IMG/VR virus record: IMGVR_UViG_3300044961_000337
Coordinates: 1-23,731 of that record
Strand: one strand, 5' to 3'
Source: a virus
DNA length: 23,731 nt
The stretch's first letter is position 1. Every line of letters begins with the position of its first letter. Below the pieces are notes generated by a model that was not told where the DNA came from, searched no databases, and saw nothing but the letters and a program-made list of their open reading frames with translations. Shown piece after piece: positions 1,794 through 19,109 of the stretch. The position numbers were made by a program, and so were the translations under genes.

Positions 1794-1799
1794 GGCGGC

Positions 1800-2228: not shown

Positions 2229-2247
2229 GTGTCGAGGGCATGAGCGG

Positions 2248-2490: not shown

Positions 2491-2503
2491 CCGAGGAGGA
2501 GAC

Positions 2504-2764
2504 GTGACTTTGACGACTGTGCTCAAGATCGTATGCATGACGGTGCTCGGCATACCGTCGCTGGTCGCAGCGACCCAGGGTGTTGAGCTATCTCCGACCG
2601 GCATGCTGATCCTTGGCATCCTGAACCTTGCAGCCGGCCTAACACTCTCCGAGCTCGAGCCATCACTCCGACGGGAACGGGTCAGCCCTGACCGCCTGAC
2701 GCCAGCGCAGACGCGCCAAGTGGCCGAAGAGTTGGATCGGCGGATGCGGGACACGCCGGCATAG
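2504..2764 (+). CDS. Small two-span membrane protein, holin candidate
   Basis: An 86-residue protein starting with GTG at 2504 behind a very strong ribosome binding site (GAGGAGGAG, 2493-2501). Two hydrophobic segments (about residues 5-23 and 30-48) are separated by a short polar turn and followed by a charged C-terminal tail (residues 50-86). This size and topology fit class II holins, which make pores that let the endolysin reach the cell wall. No homologue is recognised and it is 7 kb from the endolysin gene, so the function is tentative. Confidence 0.55.
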   Translation: MTLTTVLKIVCMTVLGIPSLVAATQGVELSPTGMLILGILNLAAGLTLSELEPSLRRERVSPDRLTPAQTRQVAEELDRRMRDTPA

Positions 2765-2779
2765 AAGGAACGCTGAGCG

Positions 2780-3499
2780 ATGGCGAGGCAGCATGGCAAA
2801 GACATACGGGTTTACCTCGGTGGCAGGGATGCCAGCGACGACCTGATGTCGATTGACGTCAAAGCGAGCGTCGAAGTGCACGACAGCACTACGTTCGCGG
2901 CAGGCGGTGACAAACGGTTCGACATTGGCCTGCGCAGCTGGACGGCCGACGTCGAGGCGTTCTATCAGCCAGGAACGGGTGGTATTGGCCAGCAACTGGA
3001 GGCCATCGGCAGCGACGCAGCTGGAGTTGGGGTGCTGTCGATCTACGACGATGATGCGGACGCCATCGGTGACACTGGCATCCTTGGCAGCGAGGCCATC
3101 TTCAAGAGCCGCGGGCAGCCGATCCGAATCAACGACCTGATCAAGCTGTCTGGATCGCTGGAGGGCAATGGGCGGCTTGGCCTCATCGGCAAGCTGCTGC
3201 ATCCGCACGGCTCCGAGACGGTCAGCTTCAACGGTGGAAGCCTTGACAATGGCGCGAGCTCGGCAAATGGAGGACGGGGGAGCGTTCACGTCACGGCCGT
3301 CACCGGCACTTGGACGCTCAAGGTCCAGCATTCCACGGACAACTCCGTTTGGAGCGACTTGATCACATTCACGGCGTTCTCGGCGGCCGGTGCACAGACG
3401 ATCGAGGTGACTGGAACTGTCAACCGTTACTTGCGGATTATTGGCACCGAGGACGCCGCCGGCACGATCACGTTCGTCGGTGGTTTCGCCCGCTATTGA
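2780..3499 (+). CDS. Major tail tube protein with C-terminal beta-sandwich extension
   Basis: A 239-residue protein. Residues 1-145 have the pattern of phage tail tube proteins: MARQHGKD, then VEVHDSTTFAAGGDKRF and an IRINDLIKLSGSLEG strand. The downstream protein at 3571-3972 has the same landmarks (HGKD, VETHDTTTLGDDDKEF, IRVNDMMKVTAT), so the two are paralogues. Residues 150-239 form an added domain with VQHSTDNSVWSD and RYLRIIG, resembling the head-region protein at 27-467. Such surface-exposed added domains occur on siphovirus tail tubes and may bind sugars or host surfaces. The ribosome binding site is a modest AAGGAAC at 2764-2770. Confidence 0.75.
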   Translation: MARQHGKDIRVYLGGRDASDDLMSIDVKASVEVHDSTTFAAGGDKRFDIGLRSWTADVEAFYQPGTGGIGQQLEAIGSDAAGVGVLSIYDDDADAIGDTGILGSEAIFKSRGQPIRINDLIKLSGSLEGNGRLGLIGKLLHPHGSETVSFNGGSLDNGASSANGGRGSVHVTAVTGTWTLKVQHSTDNSVWSDLITFTAFSAAGAQTIEVTGTVNRYLRIIGTEDAAGTITFVGGFARY

Positions 3500-3507
3500 T
3501 GGACCGC

Positions 3508-3546
3508 GTTCCATATGGAACGAGAGTCCGGCCCACCGTGGTGGGC
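3508..3546 (+). other. Two adjacent inverted repeats between the tail tube genes
   Basis: A perfect 14-bp palindrome (GTTCCATATGGAAC, 3508-3521) is followed ten bases later by a hairpin-forming 16-mer (GCCCACCGTGGTGGGC, 3531-3546; seven-base stem, or six with a four-base loop). They fill most of the 71-base gap between the two tail tube genes, which is long for this tightly packed operon. No T-run follows, so it is not a standard terminator. It could be an attenuator or mRNA-stability element that changes the ratio of the two proteins. Confidence 0.45.
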
Positions 3547-3570
3547 ATTCCTGTTTGAGGAGGCACGAAA

Positions 3571-3972
3571 ATGCCCCGAGTCCATGGCAAAGATCTGACC
3601 TCGCTCCAGGTCGATAACGCGGGTGGTACCGCTCAGAACCTGCTGGCCGAGACGATCGGCCTCGATTTCAAGCACTCGGTCGAGACGCATGACACCACGA
3701 CGCTCGGTGACGACGACAAGGAGTTCACGTCCGGCCTCAAGGGCGGAGATACATTCGACCACGAGCTGTTCTACAACAACACCTCCTCGACCGGGGTCTG
3801 GGCGATCCTGACCGGCCGGCTCGGCGTCGAGGGCACGCTGACGTTCAGTGATGGCACTCGGACCGTGACGATGGAGACCATCATCACGGCGCTCTCGCTG
3901 CCGATCAGGGTCAACGATATGATGAAGGTGACGGCGACGCACCAGATCACCGGAGCGGTGACGTACTCGTGA
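3571..3972 (+). CDS. Second tail tube-like protein (paralogue)
   Basis: A 133-residue protein sharing the tube-protein landmarks of its upstream neighbour: HGKD near the N-terminus, VETHDTTTLGDDDKEF at about 37-52, and IRVNDMMKVTA near the C-terminus. It lacks the C-terminal beta-sandwich extension. GAGGAGG at 3557-3563 is a strong ribosome binding site. The tail chaperone gene begins inside its stop codon (GTGA). This may be the main tube subunit, with the longer paralogue as a decorated minor form, or the reverse; the sequence cannot decide. Confidence 0.75.
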   Translation: MPRVHGKDLTSLQVDNAGGTAQNLLAETIGLDFKHSVETHDTTTLGDDDKEFTSGLKGGDTFDHELFYNNTSSTGVWAILTGRLGVEGTLTFSDGTRTVTMETIITALSLPIRVNDMMKVTATHQITGAVTYS

Positions 3973-4247
3973 GCAGTGCCGTGACTGAACCGAAGCGCGT
4001 GGATCTGGCCGGCGAGTTGGCTGGCAGGCATGTCCTCCTCGACCTCGAACAGGTTGACGTTGGACTGATCGAGGACCTATCGAGCCGGAATGTCACGATG
4101 ATGCTCGATGCTTTTGCGCGCCTCATCGTCGGCGGTGATCTGCCACATGGCACGGACCGGGTTGGGCTACGACGGCTGAAGCTGCAACAGATGAAGGCGC
4201 TCGGCGACGGGATCGACTCGGTAATCTCGATCCCAAACGCGACCTGA
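3969..4247 (+). CDS. Tail assembly chaperone, short form (gpG-like)
   Basis: A 92-residue protein starting with GTG that overlaps the tube gene stop by four bases. The N-terminal strand part (RVDLAGELAGRHVLLDL) and helices (MMLDAFARLIVGG, RLKLQQMKALGDGI) are compatible with gpG-type tail chaperones, which hold the tape measure protein before tube polymerisation. The position, between tube and tape measure genes, is diagnostic. The last codons contain a slippery heptamer (4232-4238) that produces the longer GT form. Confidence 0.8.
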   Translation: MSSAVTEPKRVDLAGELAGRHVLLDLEQVDVGLIEDLSSRNVTMMLDAFARLIVGGDLPHGTDRVGLRRLKLQQMKALGDGIDSVISIPNAT

Positions 4248-4444
4248 CCGAGTTCACCAAATGGGCGGCGGGGATGCACGCGGACCCGCCGCCAGAACTG
4301 GTCGGTCTGTATCTGCGTGCGCGGCTCTGCCGGCTCTTTCCGTCCTATCGGCTGGAGGAGATCCGTGGGCCAGTCCTGCTCGAGTTGCTGAAAGCAGCTC
4401 GCCTGCTCGATACCGTGGAGCAGGTCCACGCTAAGCCAGGATGA
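3969..4444 (+). CDS. Tail assembly chaperone, -1 frameshift fusion (gpGT-like)
   Basis: The frame at 3969 stops at 4245-4247, but the -1 frame stays open to TGA at 4442-4444. It encodes a natural-looking extension of about 68 residues: NLDPKRDLTEFTKWAAG leading to helices (LVGLYLRARLCRLFPSYRL, LLELLKAARLLDTVEQ). The switch point is the heptamer C-CCA-AAC at 4232-4238, read in the zero frame as CCA AAC and after slippage as CCC AAA. This is the X-XXY-YYZ form used for lambda G/GT and most siphovirus tail chaperones. No separate start with a ribosome binding site is seen for the T part. The fusion product recruits tube subunits in known systems. Confidence 0.82.
4232..4293 (+). promoter_or_regulatory. 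Programmed -1 frameshift signal: slippery heptamer and downstream stem-loop
   Basis: The slippery heptamer is at 4232-4238. Downstream, 4264-4272 (GGCGGCGGG) pairs perfectly with 4285-4293 (CCCGCCGCC), giving a nine-base GC stem and a 12-base loop. It starts 25 bases after the heptamer, further than the usual 5-9 bases, so its stimulatory role is uncertain. The heptamer itself is well supported by the reading frames. Confidence 0.7.
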
Positions 4445-4447
4445 CGC

Positions 4448-6796
4448 ATGCCGGCTAATCTCGATATCCGCATCACGGCAACGGATGCCGCCACGCCGGT
4501 TTTCGGCAAGGTCCAGCAGTCTGCCAGCGGGCTTAGCTCCAGCCTGAGCGAGTCGCTCGGCAAAGGCATTACGAACGTCATCTCCGGCTTGGGCCAGTTG
4601 AAGCTGGCCGCGGATGGCGTCCAGACCGTTTTCGATGGCATCAAGGGCATCGGCTCTGCCTTCGGGATCGGCGCCCTTTCGGAACTGGAGCAGACTCGAG
4701 CCAGCTTCATGGCGTTCACCAAGGACGCGGCTAAAACCGAACAGATCCTCCAGCAGGTCCGCGATGAGGCAGCGAAGACGCCGTTCTCCTTCGGCGAGAT
4801 GGCGAAAGCGGCGGCCAGCCTGATGCCGGTTGCGAAGCAAAGCGGCATGGCGCTGATGGATCTGGTCAAGGAGGCCGAGATCCTTGCCGCCTCCAACCCA
4901 ACGGAGGGGCTTGAGGGCGCATCGTTCGCGCTGCGCGAGGCGATGACCGGCGACTTCACGTCGATCATCGAGCGATTCAATTTAAGCCGCCAGACTATTA
5001 ACCAACTGAAGGCCGAAGGTGTGCCGGCTCTCGAGATCGTTCGTCGGGCGATGGCCGAGATGGGATTCGACTCCGACCTAATCGCTGCTAAGGCTGAGAC
5101 GCTCGAGGGGCGTTGGTCAACCTTCAAAGATACGCTCCAGACGCTGCAGATGCGGATCGGGCAGCCGATCTTCGACACGCTGAAAGAGGGGCTCGTCGGG
5201 CTCCAGGGTGCGCTGGATACGAATATGCCGCTCATGGAGTCAATGGCCGACTTGATCGCGGGTGGGTTGCGGCGGGCAATCGATTCCGGCAAAGAAACGA
5301 TCTCGGGTTTAGTTGCCGTCTGGAACAGTCTCAGGGAAGGCTTCGAGCGTGGCGGCATCATCGGAGCCATCCAGAATCTGGGTCCAATGCTTGGTCAGGC
5401 GCTCTCAAACCTCGGGAATCTAATTGCCAGCACCGTCGAGGGTTGGGCCAGGCGCTTCGCGGCCTGGGTTGACGGAGCCGAGCAACTCCAAGGCAGCGAA
5501 CTGGCCGCAATGGCGCAGGCCTTGTATACCTGGATTGGCACCGCGGCCGCGGCCATCGTCGAGAAGCTCGGACAATGGGCCGGGGCGTTTGTCGACTGGG
5601 TCGGGCCGAAGATCCCGCCGCTGCTCGCCGCGCTCGGGGACTACCTGTCCAGCATGTTGGGATGGGTGATCGATACGGCGCTACCGGCGATCATCGGGAA
5701 ACTCGCGGAGTGGGGCCTAGCATTTGTCGAGTGGATCGGTCCGCGGATCCCGCCGCTGCTCGCCGCGCTGGGCGGCTTGCTCTTGCAGTTGGTCGGCTGG
5801 ATCGCCTTTACGGCGCTACCTGCGATCATCGGAAAACTTGGTGAGTGGGCGCTCGCCTTCGTGACATGGGTGCCTGGGGCGATCGTCGATCTGCTCTACA
5901 AGCTTGGCGAGCTCGAGTTTCGGTTGCTCGGCTGGATCGGTGACCGGGTCGGCGACCTCGCGCGGGCGGCGCTCGACCTCGGATCTGGCCTGGTTGGTGG
6001 GATTCGCGACGGTATCGCCGACGCGCTTGGCTGGTTCTGGAGCTGGCTCCAGGATAATTTCATCGATCGGATCCCTGGCTTTGTGCGCGAGATGCTCGGG
6101 ATCAGATCGCCCTCTGGCGTGTTTATCGACATCGGGCGGAACATCGTCGAGGGACTGCGGGTCGGAATGGAGCGTCGTCTGCCGTCAATCGACGAGCTGA
6201 TCGAGCGGATGGTGGGACGGATCGCTGACGTCGGCGAAGTAGCCGACTGGCTCAGAGCGGCGATGCGGATCGCCGGGGTTGGTGATGACTGGCTACGTGG
6301 ACTCGTGCGCCTGGTCGATCTCGAGTCGAGCGGGAACCCGCGAGCCCGCAATCCGGAGTCGGTGAATGGCGAGCACGCTAGCGGTCTGCTCCAGACGTTG
6401 CCATCCACGTTCCGGTCCTATCGCGACCGCGACCTCCCGAACGACATTTTCAACCCCGTCGCCAATGCGGTGGCGGCTATCCGCTACATCAGCGACACCT
6501 ATGGCCACGTCAACAAGATCCCTGGCCTGTTCAGTGGCCGCTTTCGCGGGTATGCCGAGGGCGGGATCGCTTGGAACCGCCAACTAGCGTGGGTTGCCGA
6601 GCGAGAGCCTGAGCTAATCGTGCCGCTCTCAAGGCTCCGGCCCAGCCCGGCTGGCGGCGGTGGCGGCGTCTATATCGCGCCGGGCGCGATTGTTGTCCAA
6701 GGCTCCCTCGTCCATGAGCGCGATCTCGAGCAGGTTGTTATGGCGGCTATCGGTGGTGGTCTGCGCCACGGTATCCAACTCGGAGGTGGACGCTAA
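4448..6796 (+). CDS. Tail tape measure protein with C-terminal transglycosylase domain
   Basis: A 782-residue protein that sets tail length and is ejected with the DNA. Residues 1-270 show the usual tape measure N-terminus with a helix-rich region (ELEQTRASFMAFTKDAAKTE, PFSFGEMAKAAASLMP). Residues about 375-510 contain three 45-residue hydrophobic repeats (two close copies of KLxxWxxAFVxWxGPxIPPLLAAL and a diverged third), probably membrane-active. A GIRSPS motif, common in tape measures, follows. Residues 610-700 form a lytic transglycosylase (SLT) domain: DLESSGNP has the catalytic Glu at about 626, with GLLQTLPSTF and later segments typical of the fold. That domain would open peptidoglycan during DNA entry. 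By the usual length rule, the tail should be on the order of 100 nm. Confidence 0.9.
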   Translation: MPANLDIRITATDAATPVFGKVQQSASGLSSSLSESLGKGITNVISGLGQLKLAADGVQTVFDGIKGIGSAFGIGALSELEQTRASFMAFTKDAAKTEQILQQVRDEAAKTPFSFGEMAKAAASLMPVAKQSGMALMDLVKEAEILAASNPTEGLEGASFALREAMTGDFTSIIERFNLSRQTINQLKAEGVPALEIVRRAMAEMGFDSDLIAAKAETLEGRWSTFKDTLQTLQMRIGQPIFDTLKEGLVGLQGALDTNMPLMESMADLIAGGLRRAIDSGKETISGLVAVWNSLREGFERGGIIGAIQNLGPMLGQALSNLGNLIASTVEGWARRFAAWVDGAEQLQGSELAAMAQALYTWIGTAAAAIVEKLGQWAGAFVDWVGPKIPPLLAALGDYLSSMLGWVIDTALPAIIGKLAEWGLAFVEWIGPRIPPLLAALGGLLLQLVGWIAFTALPAIIGKLGEWALAFVTWVPGAIVDLLYKLGELEFRLLGWIGDRVGDLARAALDLGSGLVGGIRDGIADALGWFWSWLQDNFIDRIPGFVREMLGIRSPSGVFIDIGRNIVEGLRVGMERRLPSIDELIERMVGRIADVGEVADWLRAAMRIAGVGDDWLRGLVRLVDLESSGNPRARNPESVNGEHASGLLQTLPSTFRSYRDRDLPNDIFNPVANAVAAIRYISDTYGHVNKIPGLFSGRFRGYAEGGIAWNRQLAWVAEREPELIVPLSRLRPSPAGGGGGVYIAPGAIVVQGSLVHERDLEQVVMAAIGGGLRHGIQLGGGR

Positions 6797-7696
6797 GTGC
6801 CCGGCTCGACCAACTTTCCATCCTCGCTTGACAGCCACACCGGAGGCAATCCGTTTGGGTTTGCTGAGGTCGGGAACCTCGTCTCGACGCGGCTGTCAGC
6901 GGCAACCTCGAACTCGGACACGACGATCTCAGTCGTGTCGACGACTGGTTTTGCTAGTCGCGGGATCATCGTTATCGACCGGGAGGTCATCACCTATACT
7001 GGCACGACGGCAACCACCTTCACCGGCTGCACGCGCGGCGCCGGTGGCACCACGGCTTCCTCTCACCTCAAGAACCGATCGGTTTCCTCGGTGCCCGTGG
7101 CTGCCAATCACAACGACTTGGCGGCAGCGATCGTCGCGATTGAGACGGTGCTCGGCGCCGGAATCACGGCCAGCTTCGGGGTGATGCGCAAGATCGCTGA
7201 GGTCACCCTGGCGAGCGCAGCCGCCCAGATCGACTTCACCAACATCCCGCAGGTCTACCGGCACTTGCTGGTGATGCTGTACTCGCGCAATGACACCGCG
7301 GGGGCGAACCTCTTTGTGCGCTTGTCCTCGGACGGCACGACGTTCGACAGCGGTGCCAACTATGACTGGGAGCTGGTGTCAGCGAACAGCACAACGGTGA
7401 CTGGGTTCGGCGCGCTGGCGCAGACCTCGGGGCTCGTCGGCGCGCACGGCGCGGCTGCTGGGGTGATGTCGCTGTCGTCGATCCAATTCGGCGAGTATGC
7501 CAATAGCAGCTATCAGAAAGCGATCGTCGCTCAGCACAACCGCAAAGACGGCGTTGATGCGGCAATCAATTTATTCAGCGGCACTGACGCGGTCTGGTGG
7601 CGCAATACGGCCGCGATTCGGGGGATCCGCCTGTTCCCAGGTTCCGGCAATTTCGCGGCCGGTTCGCGGGCTACGCTCTACGGTCTGCCGGCCTGA
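6797..7696 (+). CDS. Phage tail fibre/receptor-binding protein
   Basis: A 299-residue protein starting with GTG immediately after the tape measure stop. Residues 28-95 form a small beta domain (TTISVVSTTGF, REVITYTGTTATTFTGCTRG), a module often repeated in phage tail proteins. Residues about 130-299 have a strand-rich C-terminal domain beginning with IDFTNIPQVYRHLLVMLYSR, a pattern I associate with receptor-binding or fibre tips. A linker of small residues joins them. It probably decorates the tail tip and contacts the host surface. No membrane or signal segment. Confidence 0.7.
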   Translation: MPGSTNFPSSLDSHTGGNPFGFAEVGNLVSTRLSAATSNSDTTISVVSTTGFASRGIIVIDREVITYTGTTATTFTGCTRGAGGTTASSHLKNRSVSSVPVAANHNDLAAAIVAIETVLGAGITASFGVMRKIAEVTLASAAAQIDFTNIPQVYRHLLVMLYSRNDTAGANLFVRLSSDGTTFDSGANYDWELVSANSTTVTGFGALAQTSGLVGAHGAAAGVMSLSSIQFGEYANSSYQKAIVAQHNRKDGVDAAINLFSGTDAVWWRNTAAIRGIRLFPGSGNFAAGSRATLYGLPA

Positions 7697-7705
7697 GGGG
7701 GCGCC

Positions 7706-7999
7706 ATGCAGCGCTTGATCGTCGATTGCGCTGGCTCGTCGGCGGGAGGCTCGCCCCCCACGACTCGGGTGGTCGAGCTAACCGGCGACGAACTCGCCGA
7801 GCACCAGGCCATGCAGGCCGTCGAGGCGGCGCGTGAGCAGGCTGCGGCGGACCGGCGAGCAGATTTGGAGACCAGGCGGGCCACGATCGTGGCGGAACTC
7901 CAGGCGATCCGAGACGCCACTGGCTGGGCGGCAGCGAAGCAGCCGCTGCTGCGGCTGCTGGTCTTCCTCATGCGGCGGCTTGGGGAGCGGGATAGCTGA
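7706..7999 (+). CDS. Small coiled-coil tail-associated protein
   Basis: A 97-residue protein. An N-terminal strand segment and VVELTGDELAEHQAMQ lead into a long charged helix (residues 35-70, EAAREQAAADRRADLETRR), probably a coiled coil, with a hydrophobic end (LLRLLVFLMRRL). Similar short proteins beginning with a strand pair and carrying a coiled coil lie beside tail-fibre genes in many phages. Its stop overlaps the next start (TGATG), showing translational coupling to the 617-residue tail protein. Confidence 0.55.
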   Translation: MQRLIVDCAGSSAGGSPPTTRVVELTGDELAEHQAMQAVEAAREQAAADRRADLETRRATIVAELQAIRDATGWAAAKQPLLRLLVFLMRRLGERDS

Positions 8000-9852
8000 T
8001 GAGCCGCTGGGGGAGCGCGAGCACTCTTTGGGGAGGGTCCGGTGACGCCGCGGCCGGCAGCCTAAACCAGCACCATGTCACGCTCGGCGGCGTCGGCCTG
8101 CTGCTCGCCCGCGGCGGCTACGACCGCTCAATCGCGCAGCAGTTCGCCGCCAAGCTGGTCACCGACGCCCTAACCAGCGACGCGAGGCTCGGCGAGCAGG
8201 AAGTGCTGCTCGACGATTGGTCCGGAGGTGAGGGCTACCTTCGCTATGACCCTGAGACCCCAAACCGCTACCGCCAGGGTTTCGGAATCGACGTCTATAC
8301 CGAGCCAGGTGCAGTCCAGCTGGGACCGCACGTCGTGACCGCACAGAGCACGGCCTTCAACGAACTGACAGTGGCCTATCCATATGGAGGCTCCCTATAC
8401 GTCGGAACCTCGGACGGCAAGATCTACAGCTGGAACGGCTCGAGCTGGAGTCTCTCGCACGATACCGGCAAGGCGGGCGGGATCCGCTCGATGACGACGT
8501 ACCAGAACCGTCTATATGTGGGCACCGGTACGGACGGCGCGGTGTTCAAATTTGACGGCACGACGTGGAGCACGGCCTTCACGGCCGCCTCCTCCACCGG
8601 CGTCTATGCGATGACGACTCACTACCGCCAGGCGGCGCAGTATCTATATATCGGCTCTGAGGCAGGTGGCGCGAACGACATGGCCCGAATCCACTTCTGG
8701 GACGACTCAGCGCTCTCGCTCGGCCAACTCGACACCGAGGAGCCGCGCGTGAGCGTCGCCGCGGTGTTGGGTGAGTATTGCTATTTCGTCGGCGTGGATA
8801 CCGCTGCACGGCGCAGCTCGGTCTATAGCGTCGATCAGAGCACGAGCGGCGGCCAGTGGCGCCACCATGTCAGCATGCCTGGCGTGACGATCGTGAGCGG
8901 CGCCGTATTTAACGATCTGCTCTATTTGGGAGATGCCAACGACGGTAAGATCTACAGTTGGGACGGCGAGAATCTGACGCTCGTCCACCAACTAGGCAGC
9001 GACGCTGCGCCGTATACGACCGCGATCCGCGGCATAAGCGTCTGGCGCGGGGCGCTCTGGATCTTCGCGCCAGACACCAGCGGCGGCACGCTGGGCCTGA
9101 TGCGCTACGACGGCACGAGCTGGTCGAGGCCGATCAGCGGACTGACGGGAACCACGCCGACGGGACTGGCGCAATATGCCGGCCAGCTATATATGCTCAC
9201 GGCCGCCACGGGTGCGGCGCAGTTATATCGGACGAACGGCACCATACGGGCCTCCGGTGAGGTCGAGAGCGGCCTGATCGACGCGCGCCTCTCGGGGACG
9301 AGCAAGCTCTGGCGCGGCGTGACGGTCTCACACTCTGCGCTCGTCTCGGGTCAGAGTGTGACGGTCCAGTACAAGCTCGAGGACAGCGGCTCATGGACGA
9401 CGCTCGGGACCAACTCGACCGTCGGCTCGACATCGGCGGATTTCGATTTCAGTAGCACGATCACTGCCAATCTGATCGCCTTCCGGATTTTGCTAGCGGG
9501 GACCGCCGGCAGCTCGTCGCCGCTTAAGGTATATGGTCTCTCGGCGCGATATCATCCGCAGCCTGCGGCGAAGCTCACCTGGTCGCTGTCCGTGCGCCTC
9601 GAGGGCACGGACAGCCGCAAAATGACCCGCATTGACGGTAGCGATGAGACAATGACCGGTGAGCAGATTTCAGCTGCCATCTGGGACCTGATTGACGTGA
9701 ACGAGCCGGTCGTGTTCACAGACATTGACGGGCAGGAGTATGACGTTCTGATCGACGAATACCGAGAGCAACTGGCTCCGAGCCTGCCACAAATCAACGC
9801 CGGGTCAGTCGGCTGGGAACTGGCCGGGCAGCTTCGCCTGATACAGGTATGA
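7999..9852 (+). CDS. Tail tip protein with beta-propeller repeats
   Basis: A 617-residue protein. Residues about 125-410 hold repeated blades with the signature LYVGTxDGxIYSWNGSSW (for example at residues about 131-148, again as LYVGTGTDGAVFKFDGTTW, and later LYLGDANDGKIYSWDG), a Kelch/propeller-like arrangement. Residues 420-530 look like a beta-sandwich, and the C-terminal 90 residues (LSVRLEG, DVNEPVVFTDIDGQEYDVLID) resemble tail attachment domains. The protein is likely a distal tail or receptor-binding component that recognises surface glycans. It is the last structural gene before the endolysin. Confidence 0.7.
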   Translation: MSRWGSASTLWGGSGDAAAGSLNQHHVTLGGVGLLLARGGYDRSIAQQFAAKLVTDALTSDARLGEQEVLLDDWSGGEGYLRYDPETPNRYRQGFGIDVYTEPGAVQLGPHVVTAQSTAFNELTVAYPYGGSLYVGTSDGKIYSWNGSSWSLSHDTGKAGGIRSMTTYQNRLYVGTGTDGAVFKFDGTTWSTAFTAASSTGVYAMTTHYRQAAQYLYIGSEAGGANDMARIHFWDDSALSLGQLDTEEPRVSVAAVLGEYCYFVGVDTAARRSSVYSVDQSTSGGQWRHHVSMPGVTIVSGAVFNDLLYLGDANDGKIYSWDGENLTLVHQLGSDAAPYTTAIRGISVWRGALWIFAPDTSGGTLGLMRYDGTSWSRPISGLTGTTPTGLAQYAGQLYMLTAATGAAQLYRTNGTIRASGEVESGLIDARLSGTSKLWRGVTVSHSALVSGQSVTVQYKLEDSGSWTTLGTNSTVGSTSADFDFSSTITANLIAFRILLAGTAGSSSPLKVYGLSARYHPQPAAKLTWSLSVRLEGTDSRKMTRIDGSDETMTGEQISAAIWDLIDVNEPVVFTDIDGQEYDVLIDEYREQLAPSLPQINAGSVGWELAGQLRLIQV

Positions 9853-10968
9853 ATGATGAGCACCGAGCTGCGAGCCTATGCGCGCGAGGTCGCCCGCCGG
9901 GAGGGGATCGACCCCGAGATGTTCGTGCGCCAGATCGACCAGGAGAGCGGGTTCGACCCGGACGCGTACAACGCGGCGAGCGGCGCCGCCGGCATTGCGC
10001 AGATCGTGGCGCGGTTCCATCCGGACGTGGACCCCTGGGACCCGATCGCCTCGCTCGACTACGCCGCGCGATGGATGGCGCAGCTCCGTGTCCAGCTCGG
10101 AACGTATCGTAAGGCGCTGGCGGCCTACAACTGGGGGCCGGGCAACGTCGCTCGGTGGGACGGCTCGCCGGACGGGCTGCCCGCCGAGACGCGCCACTAC
10201 CTGGACGTCATCCTCGGGCCCGGCTGGCCGGAGCCGGGTCAGGGCGGACCGGCGCCCGAGGAGGGCGCTGCCGACCAGTGGCTGCGCGTGGTCGAGGACG
10301 GCGTGCGGCTCAGGACTGAGCCCTCGACGTCGGCGCCGATCGTCACGCAGTTGAACCAGGGGACGCTCGTCGCGGCGCTCAGCCCCTTCGACTGGCGCCC
10401 GGTCCGCGTGGGCGAGCGCGTGGGCTGGATCGCATCCGACTTCCTCGCACCCGCCGAGACGCCCCCCGATCAGCCGCCCGCGGTCACCCGCTACCGCTTC
10501 GACCCGACGACGCCAACCGAGCTCCAGGTGCAGGACTGGACCTGTTCAATCAGATCGGTGATGTGGATGTTGAAGTCGATCGGGATCGCAGTGACCCCGG
10601 CCGAGGCCCAGGACGCAATGTCACCTCGGTACGTGAGCAGCGACCTCGGTCTGCTCGACGCGACGGGGGCCGGCATCGTGGAGGTGCTGCGCGAGCGCTG
10701 GCACCTTTCCGCGCGGAACGATCCCTCGGCGGCGTTCGACGAGGTGGCGGCGCTGGCCGGACGGGTCCCACTGGCGATCGGGCTGCGTAACTGGGGTGGA
10801 CGCGGCCAGGGCCACTGGAGCGCCGTCCGCGGCTTCGACAGCGCGCGACTGCTGCTGGCCAACCCGGCTGGGACGGGGCCGCGCTTCGGGCATCAGGCAC
10901 TGACGCGCTCCGATTTCGACGCGCGGGGCCCGGCGTCGATGGTCTGGATCCCGCTGGAGGACGGATGA
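9853..10968 (+). CDS. Three-domain endolysin: transglycosylase, SH3b, C39-like peptidase
   Basis: A 371-residue protein with no signal peptide. Residues 1-115 are a lytic transglycosylase/muramidase domain: QIDQESGFDP has the catalytic Glu31, and AAGIAQI and YNWGPGNV follow in order. Residues 140-200 are a bacterial SH3 domain (LRVVEDGVRLRTEPSTSAPIV) for wall binding. Residues 213-371 resemble a papain-fold C39-type peptidase: QVQDWTCS supplies Cys231 behind Gln residues, GHWSAVRGFD gives His321, and LANPAG gives Asn337. The protein should cut both glycan and peptide bonds. A start at 9856 is also possible. The sequence becomes clearly more GC-rich from here on. Confidence 0.82.
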   Translation: MMSTELRAYAREVARREGIDPEMFVRQIDQESGFDPDAYNAASGAAGIAQIVARFHPDVDPWDPIASLDYAARWMAQLRVQLGTYRKALAAYNWGPGNVARWDGSPDGLPAETRHYLDVILGPGWPEPGQGGPAPEEGAADQWLRVVEDGVRLRTEPSTSAPIVTQLNQGTLVAALSPFDWRPVRVGERVGWIASDFLAPAETPPDQPPAVTRYRFDPTTPTELQVQDWTCSIRSVMWMLKSIGIAVTPAEAQDAMSPRYVSSDLGLLDATGAGIVEVLRERWHLSARNDPSAAFDEVAALAGRVPLAIGLRNWGGRGQGHWSAVRGFDSARLLLANPAGTGPRFGHQALTRSDFDARGPASMVWIPLEDG

Positions 10969-10992: not shown

Positions 10993-11280
10993 GTGATCGA
11001 CCAGGGATTCCACGGCTACCGCACGGAGCGGCTCAGGCTACTCGGCGTGAACACGCCCGAGCTGAAGGGGGCGACGCGAGCGGCCGGACTGGCCGCAAAG
11101 GCGTTCGTCGAGCGGTGGACGCACGGCGCCGACCATGACCAAGAGTGGCCGGAGATCGTCAAGACCGCCAAGAGCGACGCCTTCGGTCGCTTCCTGGCCG
11201 TCGTGTGGCGCACGTCGGACGCCCGCTGCCTCAACGACGACCTGCTCGACGCCGGCCACGCGGTGCCGTTCGCCGACTGA
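10993..11280 (+). CDS. Thermonuclease (SNase) family protein, N-terminus unclear
   Basis: The frame encodes the SNase fold core: RLRLLGVNTPELKG (metal/active-site loop, with Asn where staphylococcal nuclease has Asp40, then Glu43), and SDAFGRFLAVVW (Arg87 equivalent). SNase-like residues SDTLDVVID lie upstream of the first start codon (GTG 10993) but directly after the endolysin TGA (10966-10968), in the same frame as the endolysin. The first-strand Asp would therefore be lost with the GTG start. The ATG at 10965 overlaps the endolysin stop but is in another frame. The gene may be truncated, frameshifted or use an atypical start. It would degrade DNA or RNA if active. Confidence 0.6.
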   Translation: MIDQGFHGYRTERLRLLGVNTPELKGATRAAGLAAKAFVERWTHGADHDQEWPEIVKTAKSDAFGRFLAVVWRTSDARCLNDDLLDAGHAVPFAD

Positions 11281-11396
11281 GGTGCCAGGTGTCAGGACAC
11301 CATCGCCGAGGTCGATCGCGTGGTACCACAGCTGCTGCAGAGCCTCGGCCATGAGTTGCACTCGATTCACGCGTCCCCCAAACTGGCGCTCGCTGC
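11281..11396. other. Gap between convergent genes with short inverted repeats
   Basis: This gap separates the rightward nuclease gene from the leftward repressor gene. It contains GGTGTCAGGACACC (11288-11301; six-base stem, two-base centre) and the palindrome GTGGTACCAC (11320-11329). Either could aid termination of the converging transcripts, but neither has a T-run. No gene is recognised. Confidence 0.35.
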
Positions 11397-12380
11397 TCAC
11401 ACGAACTCGATGCCGAACAGCTCGGCTCGGCTGAGGCGGAAGCGCAGATAGACCGCCTGGCCCGGCTCCCGACCCAGATCCTCATTGACACCCCATCGGA
11501 CCGACGCGGCGGGCTGGTCGCCAGCGATCGGCGTCGCGTCCTCGAACGACCTACCCGGAATCGGCGCACCCGTCCGCGTTCGCGGCTCGATCCGGACACT
11601 CCCACCGCTCGCCGTCCTGACGTTCACGCGCAGCTGCTCGCTCGGCGGGTAGAACGCGGCGGTCGAGAACTCCCCGTCACCCTGGGCCTCCACCGCCATC
11701 AGCCGGCCATGCGGCCATCGCGCGTAGCCGGTCCGAACGATCGAGTCGAACCTCGGCGCCTTGTGCGGGATGTCGAAGCCGCTATACGGCAACACCCATG
11801 ATCCGTCCGGGAGCTCGGTCAGCTCGACGTGCGCGAACACATAACCGCTGTCCCACGCCCCAGGTGGCCCCTTCGTCAGGATGGGCGCCGTCGAAAGCCA
11901 GCTCCACACCTGGCCGTCGTGGCTCGACGCCAGGTGCACGCTCATCGAGTCGTCGGCATGGTCTATCAGCGCGTCGACCAGCCGCCGCTGGTCCGGCGTC
12001 ATGCTCGGGTACTTGCGGATGAACTCGGCGAGGGCGCGCGCCTTGGCGGGGCTCTTGACGCCTTCGGCGCGGATCAGCGCCTCGAGGTCGGGCATCGGCA
12101 CGTCGACGGCGAGGTCGGGATGGCTGCCGACCTCCGCTAGCTCACGGAGCGCCTCGGCATAGACGGCCGGGTCAAGCTCGCCGCTGAACGGATCGGTCGC
12201 CAGGCCGCGGGCGATGGCGCGGAGGCTGTCGCCGCTGATCCGGTCGCCGCGCAGCGCGGCGTAGACGGTCGGCCGGCTGACCCCGGCCAGCCGGGCCAGG
12301 GCGGCCGGCTGGAGCCGCTGGCGCTTCATCCAGACGTCCAGCGCATCTGCCAGGGCGGTCTTGTCGAGCACGCCGAGCAC
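11397..12380 (-). CDS. XRE-type repressor fused to a glycoside-hydrolase-like C-terminal region
   Basis: A 327-residue protein read leftward. The GTG at 12380 is preferred because GGAGG (rc of 12386-12390) precedes it by five bases and because the predicted transcript starts near 12395; the open frame extends further upstream but overlaps the promoter region and divergent gene. Residues 7-62 are a helix-turn-helix (LARLAGVSRPTVYAALRGD). Residues 63-145 are a helical linker. Residues 146-327 are unlike any repressor I know: HLASSHDGQVWSW, WDSGYVF and LPYSGFDIPHK resemble a propeller blade, and GYARWPHGRLMAVEA, LRVNVRTASGGSVRIE and YLRFRLSRAELFGIEF resemble the C-terminal beta-sandwich of glycosidase-like proteins. 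Position and promoter layout mark it as the lysogeny repressor. Confidence 0.72.
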   Translation of the reverse strand: MLGVLDKTALADALDVWMKRQRLQPAALARLAGVSRPTVYAALRGDRISGDSLRAIARGLATDPFSGELDPAVYAEALRELAEVGSHPDLAVDVPMPDLEALIRAEGVKSPAKARALAEFIRKYPSMTPDQRRLVDALIDHADDSMSVHLASSHDGQVWSWLSTAPILTKGPPGAWDSGYVFAHVELTELPDGSWVLPYSGFDIPHKAPRFDSIVRTGYARWPHGRLMAVEAQGDGEFSTAAFYPPSEQLRVNVRTASGGSVRIEPRTRTGAPIPGRSFEDATPIAGDQPAASVRWGVNEDLGREPGQAVYLRFRLSRAELFGIEFV

Positions 12381-12401: not shown

Positions 12402-12430
12402 ATCGTACAGCGCTTTTACAGGAGTGTCTA
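12402..12430 (-). promoter_or_regulatory. Leftward repressor promoter
   Basis: Read leftward, TAGACA (rc of 12425-12430; five of six -35 consensus bases) and TACGAT (rc of 12402-12407; four of six -10 bases) are separated by exactly 17 bases. Transcription would start near 12395, about 10-15 bases before the preferred repressor start. A TTTTACA element (12414-12420) lies in the spacer, where a bound repressor could regulate its own synthesis. Confidence 0.5.
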
Positions 12431-12477
12431 GCAATTCATCGTAAACCCCCTTGCGCTCTCGGGGCAAGTGTTTTACA
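12414..12477. promoter_or_regulatory. Candidate operator elements of the lysogeny switch
   Basis: Three related elements lie in the divergent control region: TTTTACA at 12414-12420, its inverted form GTAAAC at 12441-12446, and TTTTACA at 12471-12477. The first lies in the leftward promoter spacer, the second between the two -35 boxes and the third over the rightward -10 box. The second and third form an imperfect inverted repeat (CATCGTAAAC and GTTTTACAATGATG). This placement suits dual control by the two flanking helix-turn-helix proteins. Binding is inferred. Confidence 0.45.
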
Positions 12478-12479
12478 AT
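12451..12479 (+). promoter_or_regulatory. Rightward early promoter
   Basis: TTGCGC at 12451-12456 (three of six -35 bases) and TACAAT at 12474-12479 (five of six -10 bases) are 17 bases apart. Transcription would start near 12486, downstream of the ATGs at 12478 and 12481, which supports ATG 12511 as the start of the Cro-like gene. A TTTTACA element overlaps the -10 box. Confidence 0.55.
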
Positions 12480-12510
12480 GATGGCAATCACGCTTACGGA
12501 GCGATGGGGC

Positions 12511-12750
12511 ATGCATGTGGGAGAGCGCCTGCGTGAGCTGCGCAAGGCGCGCGGGTGGACGAAGACCGAGCTGGCGCGCCGAGCCGAGGTCTCGCGCCAG
12601 ACGGTGGTCTGCATCGAGCGCGAGGGTCACGACTACCCGATCAGCGACGTGATGCTCGCCCGCCTGGCGCTGGCGCTCGGGGTCCCGCTGGCGGAGCTGG
12701 ACCAGGACGCGGCGGTCCGCTTTGCGAAGCTGGTCGAGGTCGTCTCCTGA
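12511..12750 (+). CDS. Cro-like XRE-family regulator
   Basis: A 79-residue protein made almost entirely of one XRE helix-turn-helix domain: GERLRELRKARGWTKTELARRAEVSRQTV (residues 4-32) then ISDVMLARLALALGVPLAELD. ATG 12511 is chosen because the predicted promoter starts transcription near 12486 and GGAG at 12498-12501 lies nine bases upstream; GTG 12517 is an alternative. It diverges from the repressor gene across a short control region and heads the early operon, the position of cro in lambdoid phages. It probably represses the leftward promoter. Confidence 0.8.
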   Translation: MHVGERLRELRKARGWTKTELARRAEVSRQTVVCIEREGHDYPISDVMLARLALALGVPLAELDQDAAVRFAKLVEVVS

Positions 12751-13160
12751 TGGACGCGCCGCGTCCGCTCGTCGGGGTGGCGTGGGTCGCGCAGCGGACC
12801 GGCCTGCATCGGACCACGGTCCAGCAGGCGGCCGCGACGGGCCGGATCCCGGCCTATCGGGTGCTGTCGGACTGGCGGTTCGACCCCGACGAGATCGAGG
12901 CCTGGATCCAGGCCGGCTCGAACCGGCAGCTGGTGGCGGTCACGCCAGGGTCCGCGCCAGCGACCCGGGCGGCGCCGACGACTGGCCGACGGCGCGGTGG
13001 CGTGCCTGCCGGTGTGCCAAATCCACCCGCGCCGCTGGCGGTGCTCTTCCCCGCGGCGGCTCACCGCGGGGTCTACGACGAGGTGCCGGCTGAGTCACCG
13101 GCACGGCAGGCCGCACGCCGACGAGGGCGGAACAGGAAGGCGGCCGTCAGCGGGATCTGA
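12750..13160 (+). CDS. Excisionase/MerR-like helix-turn-helix protein
   Basis: A 136-residue protein whose start overlaps the Cro-like stop (TGATG). Residues 9-60 are an HTH_17-type winged helix: VAWVAQRTGLHRTTVQQAAATGRIPAYRV followed by DWRFDPDEIEAWI, the usual excisionase/MerR-like form with a recognition helix, a wing and a final helix ending in EAWI. Residues 65-136 are a low-complexity proline, alanine and arginine tail. No integrase is in the window, so it could be an excisionase or a general early regulator. The stop lies inside a strong hairpin. Confidence 0.7.
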   Translation: MDAPRPLVGVAWVAQRTGLHRTTVQQAAATGRIPAYRVLSDWRFDPDEIEAWIQAGSNRQLVAVTPGSAPATRAAPTTGRRRGGVPAGVPNPPAPLAVLFPAAAHRGVYDEVPAESPARQAARRRGRNRKAAVSGI

Positions 13161-13889: not shown

Positions 13890-14782
13890 GCGCGCAGGTC
13901 AGCAGCAGCCGGCGGATGGTCGGCTACCGCTACCGCCGGATCTGGGCACTGGTCGAGACGATCGCCGCCGAGCCCGGCCACTCGCGGCGGGAGCTGGCCG
14001 ACCGGTTCTTCCTCTCGGATCGCCAGCTTCAGGACGACCTGACCCGGATCCGCGACGAGCTGGGGCTGCCGCTGGTCCGGTGCGGCGGCTACCGCTTCGC
14101 CGACGAGGGGGCGGGCGGAGGGGTCGGCTCCCCGTCCCTCCAGGAGGCCCAGCTGCTGGTGCTGGTGCTCGCGCTGGCGTGGCGCGAGCGCGCGGTGCCG
14201 AGGGAGCCGCTCGAGCGGCTGACGGCGAAGCTGCCGGGGATGTTCCCGCCGCACCTGCGCCCGCTGGTCGGCGAGACGCTGAAGGCGGTCCTGGCGCCGC
14301 GATCCAAGCCGGAGGGGCGGATCTTCACGGCGCTCGCGGACGCGATCGTCCACGGCAGCTGGGTGCAGTTGCACCGCCTTCCGATGGCACTGCCGCTGCT
14401 CGACTGCGCGGAGCCGGTCGTCAAGCCGGAGATCCTCCTGCCGTACCTGGGCGGCTGGTACCTGCTCGCCGAGACCGGTGCGGACGGCGTCTCGAGGATG
14501 TTCGACCTGGCGACGTTGACGGCGGTCACGGTCTCGCCCGAGGTCCCGCACCCGAAGGGGGGCGGCGATGAGCACGACGCGCGCCGCGGCCAGTTTCGCG
14601 ACCGACCTTCAGGCGGCCTGGGACGAGGCGCTGGCGGCGCGCGTCGACCACGAGGCCCGGTGCCAAGACGGCTGCCGGCTGGTGTACGGCCAGCACTGCG
14701 CGACAGGCGCCGTGCTGGCCGAGGCCGAGCAGCGGGCGTACCACGCGTGGTTCGCCACGCGCTTCCCAGGAGGGGACGATGA
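13886..14782 (+). CDS. WYL-domain transcriptional regulator
   Basis: The frame gives 298 residues. Residues 11-73 are a winged helix-turn-helix (HSRRELADRFFLSDRQLQDDL), and residues about 145-220 are a WYL domain with the literal GGWYLLAE at 189-196 and MFDLATLTAVTVS after it. WYL domains bind nucleic acid or nucleotides and often act as ligand-sensing regulators. Normal-looking sequence ends at about residue 227, exactly where the next gene starts; residues 228-298 are arginine-, glycine- and proline-rich and probably reflect overprinting by that gene in another frame, since no stop is present. The true functional end may be near 14567. Confidence 0.72.
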   Translation: MSAQVSSSRRMVGYRYRRIWALVETIAAEPGHSRRELADRFFLSDRQLQDDLTRIRDELGLPLVRCGGYRFADEGAGGGVGSPSLQEAQLLVLVLALAWRERAVPREPLERLTAKLPGMFPPHLRPLVGETLKAVLAPRSKPEGRIFTALADAIVHGSWVQLHRLPMALPLLDCAEPVVKPEILLPYLGGWYLLAETGADGVSRMFDLATLTAVTVSPEVPHPKGGGDEHDARRGQFRDRPSGGLGRGAGGARRPRGPVPRRLPAGVRPALRDRRRAGRGRAAGVPRVVRHALPRRGR

Positions 14783-14789
14783 GGTCTGA
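14568..14789 (+). CDS. Small Cys-containing protein, unknown function
   Basis: A 73-residue protein overlapping the WYL reading frame. It has an N-terminal amphipathic helix and HEARCQDGCRLVYGQHC (residues 28-44), in which three cysteines and two histidines could bind zinc, followed by a helix (AVLAEAEQRAYHAWFATRF). GGGGGGCGGCG just upstream is a weak ribosome binding site. Natural amino-acid composition, compared with the arginine-rich WYL frame, indicates that this is the coding frame here. It overlaps the start of the repeat protein. Confidence 0.55.
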   Translation: MSTTRAAASFATDLQAAWDEALAARVDHEARCQDGCRLVYGQHCATGAVLAEAEQRAYHAWFATRFPGGDDEV

Positions 14790-15648
14790 GCTGTTCAAGG
14801 TGCTGCGTGATGGACGGTCGTGTCATGGCGGCTCGTTGACGTGGCCGCTGCCGAGCCAGAACGAGGACGGCTCCTGGACGCCCGGCGAGTGGGTCGAGGT
14901 GTCAGGGCCGCTGTCGATGTGCTCGAACGGCCTCCATCTGACGACCAACCCACGGGAGTGGTACGTCGAAGCGGCGCAGGTCTACGCCGCCGAGTACGAC
15001 GGCGAGATCGTGCGGGACGACGGCTCGGACAAGGTCTGCGTTCGACGGGCGCGCCTGCTCTCCGAGGTCGCGTGGTCCGACCACGGCGTCTACCACGAGG
15101 GCCATCACGATCTCTACGGCAACGCCCAGGCGACGCTCTACGGCAACGCCCAGGCGAGGCTCTACGGCAACGCCCAGGCGACGCTCTACGGCAACGCCCA
15201 GGCGAGGCTCTACGACAACGCCCAGGCGACGCTCTACGGCAACGCCCAGGCGACGCTCTCCGGCAACGCCCAGGCGACGCTCTCCGGCAACGCCCAGGCG
15301 ACGCTCTCCGGCAACGCCCAGGCGACGCTCTACGGCAACGCCCAGGCGACGCTCTACGGCAACGCCCAGGCGAGGCTCTACGACAACGCCCAGGCGAGGC
15401 TCTACGACAACGCCCAGGCGACGCTCTACGGCAACGCCCAGGCGAGGCTCTACGGCAACGCCCAGGCGACGCTCTACGGCAACGCCCAGGCGACGCTCTA
15501 CGGCAACGCCCAGGCGACCAGCGATCGGTGGCACAGCCCGTCTGCGACGGTGGCACTCGCCCAACTCGCAGCCCACATCGACCGTCGCGGTGGGAAGCTC
15601 ATCCTCCGGTCGGCCGAGACGGAGGGGACTGATGGCCGGACACACTGA
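14779..15648 (+). CDS. DUF7666-like protein with 17 octapeptide repeats
   Basis: A 289-residue protein behind AGGAGGGG. Residues 1-110 match a phage domain I recognise by its pattern ([50 protein letters not shown]), probably the DUF7666 type. Residues 111-246 are seventeen 8-residue repeats of the form (T/R/D)L(Y/S)(G/D)NAQA. The repeats are near identical at DNA level, with 24-base units. Similar GNA/DNA-type repeats trail this domain in other phages and may form a beta-solenoid. The C-terminal 43 residues are ordinary. Function unknown; a binding or host-takeover role is possible. Confidence 0.72.
15109..15516 (+). repeat. Tandem 24-bp repeat array, 17 units
   Basis: Seventeen head-to-tail 24-bp units encode LYGNAQA-type octapeptides. 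Variation is limited to a few positions: TAC or TCC (Tyr/Ser), GGC or GAC (Gly/Asp), and ACG or AGG (Thr/Arg). Three TLSG units are adjacent (7-9) and two RLYD units are adjacent (12-13), as expected of recent slippage or unequal crossing over. Spacers are absent, so it is not a CRISPR array. Confidence 0.97.
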
Positions 15649-16566: not shown

Positions 16567-18267
16567 ATGCACGACGAGCGGGCGCTGAGCCGCCGCCAGG
16601 CGGGCGGCGCCATCGCGACCGAGCCGCCCACGAACCCGTGGGCGGAGGTCGGCCTGCTGAAGCCGCACCAGGCCGGTGCGGTCGTGGCGCGCCCACGGGT
16701 GGATGCGATCGCCACGATCAGCGCCGGCTTCAAGCAGGAGGGGCGCGACGGCCGCTTCTACCCGGTGGTCTCACGCGACGGGACGATCCACGTCTCGGCG
16801 CCGCCGGGCCAGGCACAGGGGCTGCGCGCGGCGCTGGCGGCGCGCGACCACAAGTCGCTGACGATCGCGTTCCTGAGCAACGACCCGGCCGAGATCCTCC
16901 AGCAGCGCTTCGCGCTCTACTCGGCGACGCGGCTGGAGGCGTACGGCGACGCCGAGAGCATCACGGTCATCCACCTGCGAGACACCGGCCGCAAGGACCG
17001 CAACGGCAAGCCGGTGACGGAGCCGGTCCGCGAGACGGTGCGTCGAGCGGAGCACCCGGACCGCTACGCCGCGCTGGCCGCGACGATGTCGGCGCAGTCG
17101 TCGCTCTACTTCGGGCTCGCCGAGTGGGGCGAGGACGGCCGGCCGCGGCTGGTCTTCCCGGACGGCTGGGGCTACTACCGACTGCGCTTCACCAGCCTCA
17201 ACAGCGCCGAGGCGATCAGGGGGGCGCTCTACCACCTGGCGAGCCTGACCGGCGGGCTGGTGGCCGGGGTGCCGCTGGAGCTGTCGATCGCCTACCAGGA
17301 CGTGGCCGGGCCCGACGGCTCGCGGCGGAACGTGCCGGTCTGGTCACTGCGCCTGAACCCGCCGGGGACGATCAAGCTGGAGGCGAGCCGGGTCCGCGAG
17401 ATCCTGGAGTTCGGCCTGGAGCAGGCCCGCACGCTCGCCCTGCCGGCGCCGCGCCCGGAGACGCTGGAGTACGCCCAGGAGGAGGGCCCAGACGTCGATC
17501 TGGATGCCGCGCGGGTGATCGACGGCGAGGTGGTCACGCCGTCGGTGCGCGACGTCGAGCGGCTGGCGGGCGGGGGGCCGATCCGCGACCCGAGGCGGTT
17601 CTGCCAGGACTTCATGCTGGCCGTCAAGGGCACGTCGCTGGTCGAGAAGGCGAACCGCCAGCAGTTCATGATCGCCGCCACCAGCGGGCGCTACGACAGC
17701 CTCAAGACGTTCGCCGAGTCGGCCACCCACCGCGAGGCGACGGAGCTGATGGCGGCGGCTGCGCGCTGGATCAACGAGGAGATCTCGGCGCGGGCTGAGG
17801 CGCCCGAGCCACGGCCGCTGACCGACGAGGAGGAGCGCCTCGTCGAGCGCTATCACGCGCTGTTCGGCGAGGACGAGGACGTGACTCCCGATCCGCCGCC
17901 GGCTGTCTCGCGGGCGCCGGCGGCGGTCCCGCCCGAGGTCCACAAGGCGGCCGTGCTGACGGGCGCGCCGGTCGCGGCGGCTGAGCCGGCCCGCTTCGAG
18001 CTGCCGGGCGAGCCGGACTGGCTGCGGAGCGACGAGCTGCCGCTGATGCTGGCGGCCTGGCAGGAGTGGCTGCGGGCGCTCGAGCACCTGGACCCGGTCT
18101 ACGCCGGCGAGTTGCCGAAGAGGCCACGGGCGCTCTCGAGCGCGAAGCTGGTCACGACGCTGCGCGGGATGGTCGGCTACGCCCGCGAGCGGTACGCCGA
18201 CATCTACGGCGACCCCGAAGACGACGTGGAGCCGACTGGCGAGCCGACGCTGGTCGACGCGTTCTAG
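16567..18267 (+). CDS. Recombination directionality factor-like / DNA metabolism protein
   Basis: A 566-residue protein. Residues about 191-275 contain RPRLVFPDGWGYYRLRFTS, then HLASLTGGLVAGVPLELSI and a final strand NVPVWSLRLNPP. I associate this pattern with a phage family near the recombination directionality factors of serine-integrase phages and with proteins annotated as hydrolase or metal-binding. Residues 1-150 contain FYPVVSRDGTIHV and a region compatible with DNA binding; residues 450-500 are a proline/alanine linker and the C-terminal 70 residues are helical. It begins the replication/recombination block. If a serine integrase exists outside this window, it could direct excision. 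Medium-low confidence in the family. Confidence 0.5.
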   Translation: MHDERALSRRQAGGAIATEPPTNPWAEVGLLKPHQAGAVVARPRVDAIATISAGFKQEGRDGRFYPVVSRDGTIHVSAPPGQAQGLRAALAARDHKSLTIAFLSNDPAEILQQRFALYSATRLEAYGDAESITVIHLRDTGRKDRNGKPVTEPVRETVRRAEHPDRYAALAATMSAQSSLYFGLAEWGEDGRPRLVFPDGWGYYRLRFTSLNSAEAIRGALYHLASLTGGLVAGVPLELSIAYQDVAGPDGSRRNVPVWSLRLNPPGTIKLEASRVREILEFGLEQARTLALPAPRPETLEYAQEEGPDVDLDAARVIDGEVVTPSVRDVERLAGGGPIRDPRRFCQDFMLAVKGTSLVEKANRQQFMIAATSGRYDSLKTFAESATHREATELMAAAARWINEEISARAEAPEPRPLTDEEERLVERYHALFGEDEDVTPDPPPAVSRAPAAVPPEVHKAAVLTGAPVAAAEPARFELPGEPDWLRSDELPLMLAAWQEWLRALEHLDPVYAGELPKRPRALSSAKLVTTLRGMVGYARERYADIYGDPEDDVEPTGEPTLVDAF

Positions 18268-18269
18268 CG

Positions 18270-19109
18270 ATGCCCGCGCAACGACTCCCCTGGATCAAGC
18301 TCTGGGAGCAGGCGATCGACCACCCGAAGGTGGCGCTGCTGTCGGACGCGCTGTTCCGGACCTGGATCCACGTGCTGGTGGCCGGGTCCCAGCAGCCCCA
18401 GCGCTGGCAGTTCGCGTCGGCCAGGCACGCGGCGATCGCCAGCGGTCGGCCTGTCGCGCACATGCGGAGGCTGGTCGAGGCACGTCTGCTCGACGCGACC
18501 GATGGGGGCGGGCTGGTGGTCCACGACTGGCGCCAGTGGCAGCAAGTGTACCCGTCCGACGTCAACCGCCAGCCCCACCGCGAACACTCCGCGAACACTC
18601 CGCGAACACTCCGCGAAGACTCCGCGAAGACTCCGCGAAGACTCCGCAGAGATAGAGATAGAGATAAAGACAGAGATGGAGACGGGAGACGAGAGACGAC
18701 TTTACCCCCCGGTCTAGACACAAGACCGGCATTGGAGATGTCCCGGGGAGGGGATGTTGCGGCGTCCCCCGCCCCGGCAACTCCCCCTGGGCAGGTCTCG
18801 GCGGGCGACGAGGCGCTGCTGGCGCCGCTGCTGGACGCCTTCGACGCGCTCGGGCTGAAGCGCCCGAAGCTGACCGGCTTCGAGCCGCGAGACGCGGCCG
18901 AGCTGCTCCAGCACTTCGAGCCGCTGACCATCGCGCGGTGCTGGCAGGACATCGCCGCTGGCGCCTGGGGCGACGAGTGGGACCGCCGGCACCTGAGCTT
19001 CAAGCTGCTCGCGAGCCACAACCGGCTGGAGAACTGGCAGCGCGAGCGCGAGGCAGACGCCGTCGTCGCCGACGACCTGGTCGGCGACGTGGACGTGGTG
19101 AGGGTCTGA
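18270..19109 (+). CDS. Phage replication initiator (DnaD/O-like)
   Basis: A 279-residue protein. ATG 18270 follows the previous stop by two bases. Residues 1-95 are an N-terminal winged-helix part (LPWIKLWEQAIDHPKVALLSDALFRTWIHVLV, then VAHMRRLVEARLLD and LVVHDWRQWQQ), as in phage replisome organisers. Residues 96-175 are a charged linker encoded by short DNA repeats (SANTPRTLREDSAKTPRRLRR, then RDRDRDKDRD). Residues 180-265 are a helical C-terminal domain (LLAPLLDAFDALGLKRP, DAAELLQHFEPL). Adjacent is a DnaC-like loader, the lambda O-P order. The linker-coding DNA likely holds the replication origin. Confidence 0.72.
   Translation: MPAQRLPWIKLWEQAIDHPKVALLSDALFRTWIHVLVAGSQQPQRWQFASARHAAIASGRPVAHMRRLVEARLLDATDGGGLVVHDWRQWQQVYPSDVNRQPHREHSANTPRTLREDSAKTPRRLRRDRDRDKDRDGDGRRETTLPPGLDTRPALEMSRGGDVAASPAPATPPGQVSAGDEALLAPLLDAFDALGLKRPKLTGFEPRDAAELLQHFEPLTIARCWQDIAAGAWGDEWDRRHLSFKLLASHNRLENWQREREADAVVADDLVGDVDVVRV
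18578..18643 (+). repeat. Six 11-bp iteron-like repeats
   Basis: Six consecutive, ungapped 11-bp units: CCGCGAACACT three times (18578-18610) then CCGCGAAGACT three times (18611-18643), followed by a diverged seventh. The period is not a multiple of three, so the repeat is a DNA rather than a protein property, and its length is close to one helical turn. It lies within the initiator gene, as iterons do in the lambda O gene. Putative origin binding sites. Confidence 0.85.
18648..18683 (+). repeat. Purine-rich hexamer array, possible DNA unwinding element
   Basis: Six hexamers, AGAGAT (four times), AAAGAC and GGAGAC, form a run of purines with scattered T or C directly after the iterons. AT content here is well above that of the surrounding high-GC sequence. 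It encodes RDRDRDKDRDGD. In lambda-type origins an AT-rich, strand-biased segment next to the iterons is where melting starts, so this is the natural candidate. Confidence 0.6.

Follow-up and report, generated by a model that had tools for sequence, protein, structure and literature searches.

A phage repressor reading frame that continues into the tail of a cellular glycosidase-like gene

Results

In a virus record from an environmental collection (IMGVR_UViG_3300044961_000337), a 23,731-nt fragment that was analyzed at its full length and is referred to here as the window, a single minus-strand frame runs from an XRE repressor part directly into the 3' end of a glycosidase-like gene of apparently cellular origin. 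A phage/host junction of the specialized-transduction type best fits the locus, and we give it about an even chance of being correct. The frame starts at a GTG at 12380, directly downstream of a GGAGGT ribosome site, and ends at a TGA at 11399-11397. The initial annotation had described one uninterrupted frame, and frame analysis places its 327 codons at exactly 11397-12380, on the minus strand. A plus-strand reading of this interval was rejected because it is interrupted by stops. Two separate genes, with the tail starting at M146, were also rejected, as no Shine-Dalgarno sequence precedes M146 and the frame is continuous.

The repressor part comprises residues 1 to ~140 (11961..12380, minus strand). 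HTH_3 (E 3.9e-6) and HTH_26 (E 3.6e-5) match residues 14-64 above the Pfam cut-off, in agreement with the XRE helix-turn-helix first proposed for the start of the frame, and the PHROG match is to transcriptional repressor. An AF2 model built from a shallow two-row alignment predicts helices up to residue 143, with a helical linker after the helix-turn-helix, and the XRE part is probably still working as a repressor. Two plus-strand genes face it. The first is Cro-like XRE (12451..12750; HTH_31, 5e-12), with 49% identity to its counterpart in L055, a contig of a related phage; the second is an excisionase-like HTH_17 gene (12735..13160), a type that L055 also has. A minus-strand Cro/C1-type helix-turn-helix gene that diverges from a Cro-like gene followed by HTH_17 is the usual anatomy of an immunity region, and this layout together with the synteny with L055 supports the original assignment of the locus to the lysogeny switch. 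The divergent promoters and operator-like repeats described at the same time fared less well: a consensus scan returned a single promoter-like match, TAGACA-17-TACGAT, ahead of the repressor gene (12402..12430, minus strand), and the candidate operator repeats are weak, namely a 15-nt pair that matches at 73% and a tandem pair of 9-nt units. Close relatives of the XRE part were absent from the phages, plasmids and viral contigs searched, and comparison with 294 Planctomycetota genomes gave one weak helix-turn-helix match that is not convincing.

Residues ~139-327 align over their full length with Planctomycetota glycosidase-like proteins at 45-31% identity (best 45%, E 1.2e-51), and by this homology the corresponding DNA (11400..11960, minus strand), which continues the XRE frame, is where a cellular glycosidase-like gene ends. 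The last propeller blade lies at ~139-230 and a C-terminal all-beta domain at ~231-327, which agrees with the last propeller blade plus beta-sandwich that the initial annotation had recognized from residue patterns of glycosidase-like proteins. The homologs are long, non-XRE proteins in cellular genomes, mostly of 460-690 aa and some longer. Three of them (L023, L024 and L034) share the last blade, the C-terminal beta-domain and a remote similarity to GH117 anhydro-galactosidases, and none of the three matched a Pfam family. However, the best homologs also hold the earlier blades of the propeller, which are absent from the window, whereas the fusion has only the last ~187 residues and not a complete propeller with an active site. 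Most of the enzyme is missing, and the truncated tail is probably a non-catalytic passenger.

The glycosidase-like family is, judging from its matches, abundant in Planctomycetota, with 23 in one Pirellulales genome alone, and it may also occur in other phyla, in-depth sampling having covered Planctomycetota. A seven-sequence alignment of the family has 30 invariant columns, and of 34 family-invariant residues 30 are conserved in the tail, compared with 30 of 32-34 in full-length members, a level of retention that fits recent capture, would also fit a constrained function and is not decisive. Codon usage does not separate the tail from the phage genes. One further homolog, in the Pirellulales contig L014 (3-890), is cut by its own contig end and sits beside a frame (~1300-1692) that on visual inspection looks like a phage terminase.

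A structure prediction had been suggested as a check on the tail, and its outcome is mixed. Modeled alone, the C-terminal domain is predicted to be all-beta (pLDDT 73), but the AF2 model of the whole fusion, from the shallow two-row alignment, had a mean pLDDT of 53 and is uninformative for the lone blade, which was not confidently modeled (pLDDT <50). Fold matches are at background: Foldseek with the C-terminal domain returned nothing at E<=0.001, and the best VIA score was a Z of 6.2 among many unrelated beta domains. A GH117 chain is absent from the VIA match list for this domain, which excludes nothing, and a profile search from the tail family reached propeller structures, GH117 among them, at weak and remote similarity. 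We rejected a phage origin for the tail domain, since single-sequence and profile searches gave no viral relative. The search for other XRE proteins with the same C-terminus next to phage genes, another suggested check, found none, there being no second fusion in the phages, plasmids, viral contigs or Planctomycetota genomes searched. A literature search for an XRE/propeller fusion likewise found none.

Two features had been overlooked in the initial annotation, the first of which is the start of another gene at the stop of the fusion. On the same strand, just past the stop, is encoded the N-terminus WYHAIDLGDGVLTPG, which matches SAM-dependent methyltransferases. The truncated 5' end of this gene (11284..11400, minus strand) comprises 39 codons from a GTG at 11400, which overlaps the glycosidase-like stop as GTGA, or begins at an ATG at 11352. 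Directly after the fusion stop the minus strand reads VSSERQFGGRVNRVQLMAEALQQLWYHAIDLGDGVLTPG, and then ends beside the plus-strand stop of a nuclease gene. The stretch WYHxIDLGDGVxTPG corresponds to the N-terminus of class I methyltransferases, with 40-61% identity to three, all of which carry Pfam Methyltransf_23. The best match, at 61% identity, is on a Methylobacterium plasmid and begins at the annotated start, and similar N-termini are found in two Planctomycetota genomes. The hits are modest singly (E 0.06, 0.001), yet they agree in motif and position. Among nine relatives of the glycosidase-like gene that were inspected, none is followed by a methyltransferase start.

The alignments of the tail and of the methyltransferase delimit a putative block of cellular DNA of ~680 bp (11281..11960). 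With the end of one gene overlapping the start of the next, the block resembles a single uninterrupted stretch of an operon from a cell, set between phage sequences. It is thus apparent host DNA inside a phage genome and carries the 3' end of the glycosidase-like gene and the 5' end of the methyltransferase gene. The presence of a neighboring cellular methyltransferase start in the same stretch suggests a random piece of chromosome rather than a selected domain. The left edge adjoins the nuclease stop and the right edge lies at ~11950-12000, a position that is not exactly placeable. The two edges share no long repeat, only 9-mers, and no long repeat connects them with sequence elsewhere in the window; an att core is not recognizable at either edge.

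The second overlooked feature is the lack of an integrase: neither a tyrosine nor a serine integrase was found in the 23.7-kb window. The last phage gene before the block encodes an SNase-like nuclease (10993..11280, plus strand; Pfam SNase) whose C-terminus is natural, as phage homologs stop at the same place. It is preceded by an endolysin gene (9853..10968, plus strand) with an SLT transglycosylase, an SH3 and a C-terminal peptidase-like part, the product of which is 69% identical to that of L055 over residues 144-368. L055 is the closest relative of the lysis module and the only syntenic relative, although a distant one. Its gene order is endolysin, tyrosine integrase (minus), lipoprotein-like (minus), ImmA-like (minus) and XRE (minus) facing Cro-like (plus) and HTH_17 (plus), and its ImmA-like peptidase matches Peptidase_M78 below the cut-off. 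The locus in the window resembles XRE repressor regions with an ImmA-like partner, such as that of L055, in position, in divergence from a Cro-like gene and in the size of the XRE part, but where L055 has its integrase, lipoprotein-like and ImmA-like genes the window carries the cellular block. Since the nuclease ends naturally, the outer genes are the same as in L055 and an integrase is absent, the block appears to replace the part of the region in which the integrase would lie. An integrase could sit beyond the ends of the window, which is a fragment.

Discussion

In phages of the lambda-bio type, host DNA has replaced the integrase region, which lies between the late genes and the repressor. 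The block appears to occupy the same place, and there is perhaps one chance in two that the fusion results from read-through across a junction of phage and host DNA left by aberrant excision of this kind. A prophage would have been located beside, or inside, a cellular operon consisting of the glycosidase-like gene followed by the methyltransferase gene. Aberrant excision would then have produced a circle that took along ~680 bp of the adjoining host sequence and left behind the integrase region, with the integrase and, if present, ImmA. As in lambda-bio, one edge is expected at an attachment-site junction and the other would be illegitimate; we infer that the former is the edge beside the nuclease stop (~11281) and the latter the edge inside the 3' end of the XRE gene (~11960), where the frame was left open by chance, so that the repressor would now read through into the tail of the captured gene. 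The locus differs from lambda-bio in that only ~680 bp of host DNA is present, in that the repressor frame is lengthened by a join within its 3' end, and in that excision is deduced from the arrangement of the genes. That aberrant prophage excision can yield hybrids in which viral DNA is joined to neighboring host DNA is textbook knowledge (PMC6687093).

In favor of excision, pieces of two unrelated cellular genes abut in natural operon order, and the tail homologs occur in long non-XRE cellular frames, with none found in a viral, phage or XRE context. Against it, no second contig spans either junction among the viral contigs searched, and no host genome carrying the glycosidase-like/methyltransferase operon was found. 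In addition, transducing variants are uncommon and are not often the main form recovered in an assembly. Excision predicts that an att core lies near 11281, that the phage is integrase-minus, and that the XRE part works while its tail is a passenger. Should the contig prove right, it provides a snapshot of host-gene pickup by an uncultured phage, in which the captured host DNA, the slot that the integrase vacated and the new fusion can all still be read. It also cautions that an odd fusion of domains at an immunity locus may be the scar of a phage/host join and not a new regulator.

The joins are supported by no second contig or read, and for this reason it is quite possible, though less likely than excision, that the contig is an assembly chimera in which cellular reads, perhaps planctomycete, were joined into a phage contig and the fusion gene does not exist. 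The evidence comes from a single contig of an environmental collection, with no second copy across the junctions in viral contigs, and the Planctomycetota genomes searched hold no convincing relative of the XRE part. However, two independent wrong joins 680 bp apart would be needed, with no long shared repeat at the edges or in the rest of the window to promote them. Furthermore, little of the XRE part is missing and its frame is kept, the nuclease gene is whole, and the position of the block coincides exactly with the integrase slot. Should the contig prove wrong, it would still be a useful example of how a chimera can appear.

It is unlikely that the switch depends on a host-derived domain, whether as an active repressor with a captured glycosidase tail or through a repressor whose 3' end was swapped with a host gene on integration. 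In mycobacteriophage BPs, attP lies within the repressor gene, gene 33, and integration exchanges the repressor 3' end (PMC4557955). An attachment site of this type would account for a repressor 3' end that meets host DNA near the usual end of small XRE proteins, and in both cases that end depends on a phage/host junction. Yet the BPs integrase adjoins the repressor, whereas none was found here, and the second edge at the nuclease requires another event. In BPs the repressor gains 33 residues that include an ssrA-like degradation tag, not ~187 residues of enzyme tail, and in contrast to the integration-dependent immunity of BPs there is no evidence of two repressor forms. A BPs-like origin is accordingly quite improbable.

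In a functional fusion, the blade and beta-domain would tune the repressor through glycan binding or oligomerization and so link lysogeny to carbohydrate state, a link that the initial annotation had offered as one option; the fusion is in frame, conserved residues are retained and the C-terminal domain has weak fold similarity to carbohydrate-binding modules (Z 6.2, rmsd 3.1, 85 aligned), but this is very improbable given that a Z of 6 is within background, that the tail begins mid-propeller and not at a domain boundary, with a poorly predicted blade and most of the enzyme absent, that no other XRE fusion was found, and that a methyltransferase fragment travels with it. That annotation was right to offer a captured fragment as its other option. 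Its observations are partly confirmed and its interpretation is partly supported: a captured fragment fits, but sugar sensing and a role as a new regulator are not supported.

Other Features of the Window

The window contains tail, lysis, immunity and replication modules. Proteins encoded at 1430-8400 are 99.7-100% identical to those of a contig from another sample (IMGVR_UViG_3300045902_000036), which stops short of the immunity region. Two adjacent major-tail-protein-like genes (2780-3499 and 3571-3972) have ~34% mutual identity over ~139 residues. GC3 shifts at the endolysin (9853), from 0.72-0.85 in the tail genes to mostly 0.82-0.96 from the endolysin onward, which suggests modules of different origin. 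A plus-strand gene at 14779-15648 has an N-terminal DUF7666 match and a 24-base tandem repeat (15112-15518; 17 copies at 96%) that encodes repeated LYGNAQAT units. At 16567-18267 is a protein resembling Gp3-like recombination directionality factors (PF18897), though the window is without a serine integrase; it had no match in 246 Planctomycetota genomes. Finally, a replication initiator-like gene contains tandem repeats at 18578-18683, with 6.4 copies of an 11-nt unit and 3.1 copies of a 12-nt unit.
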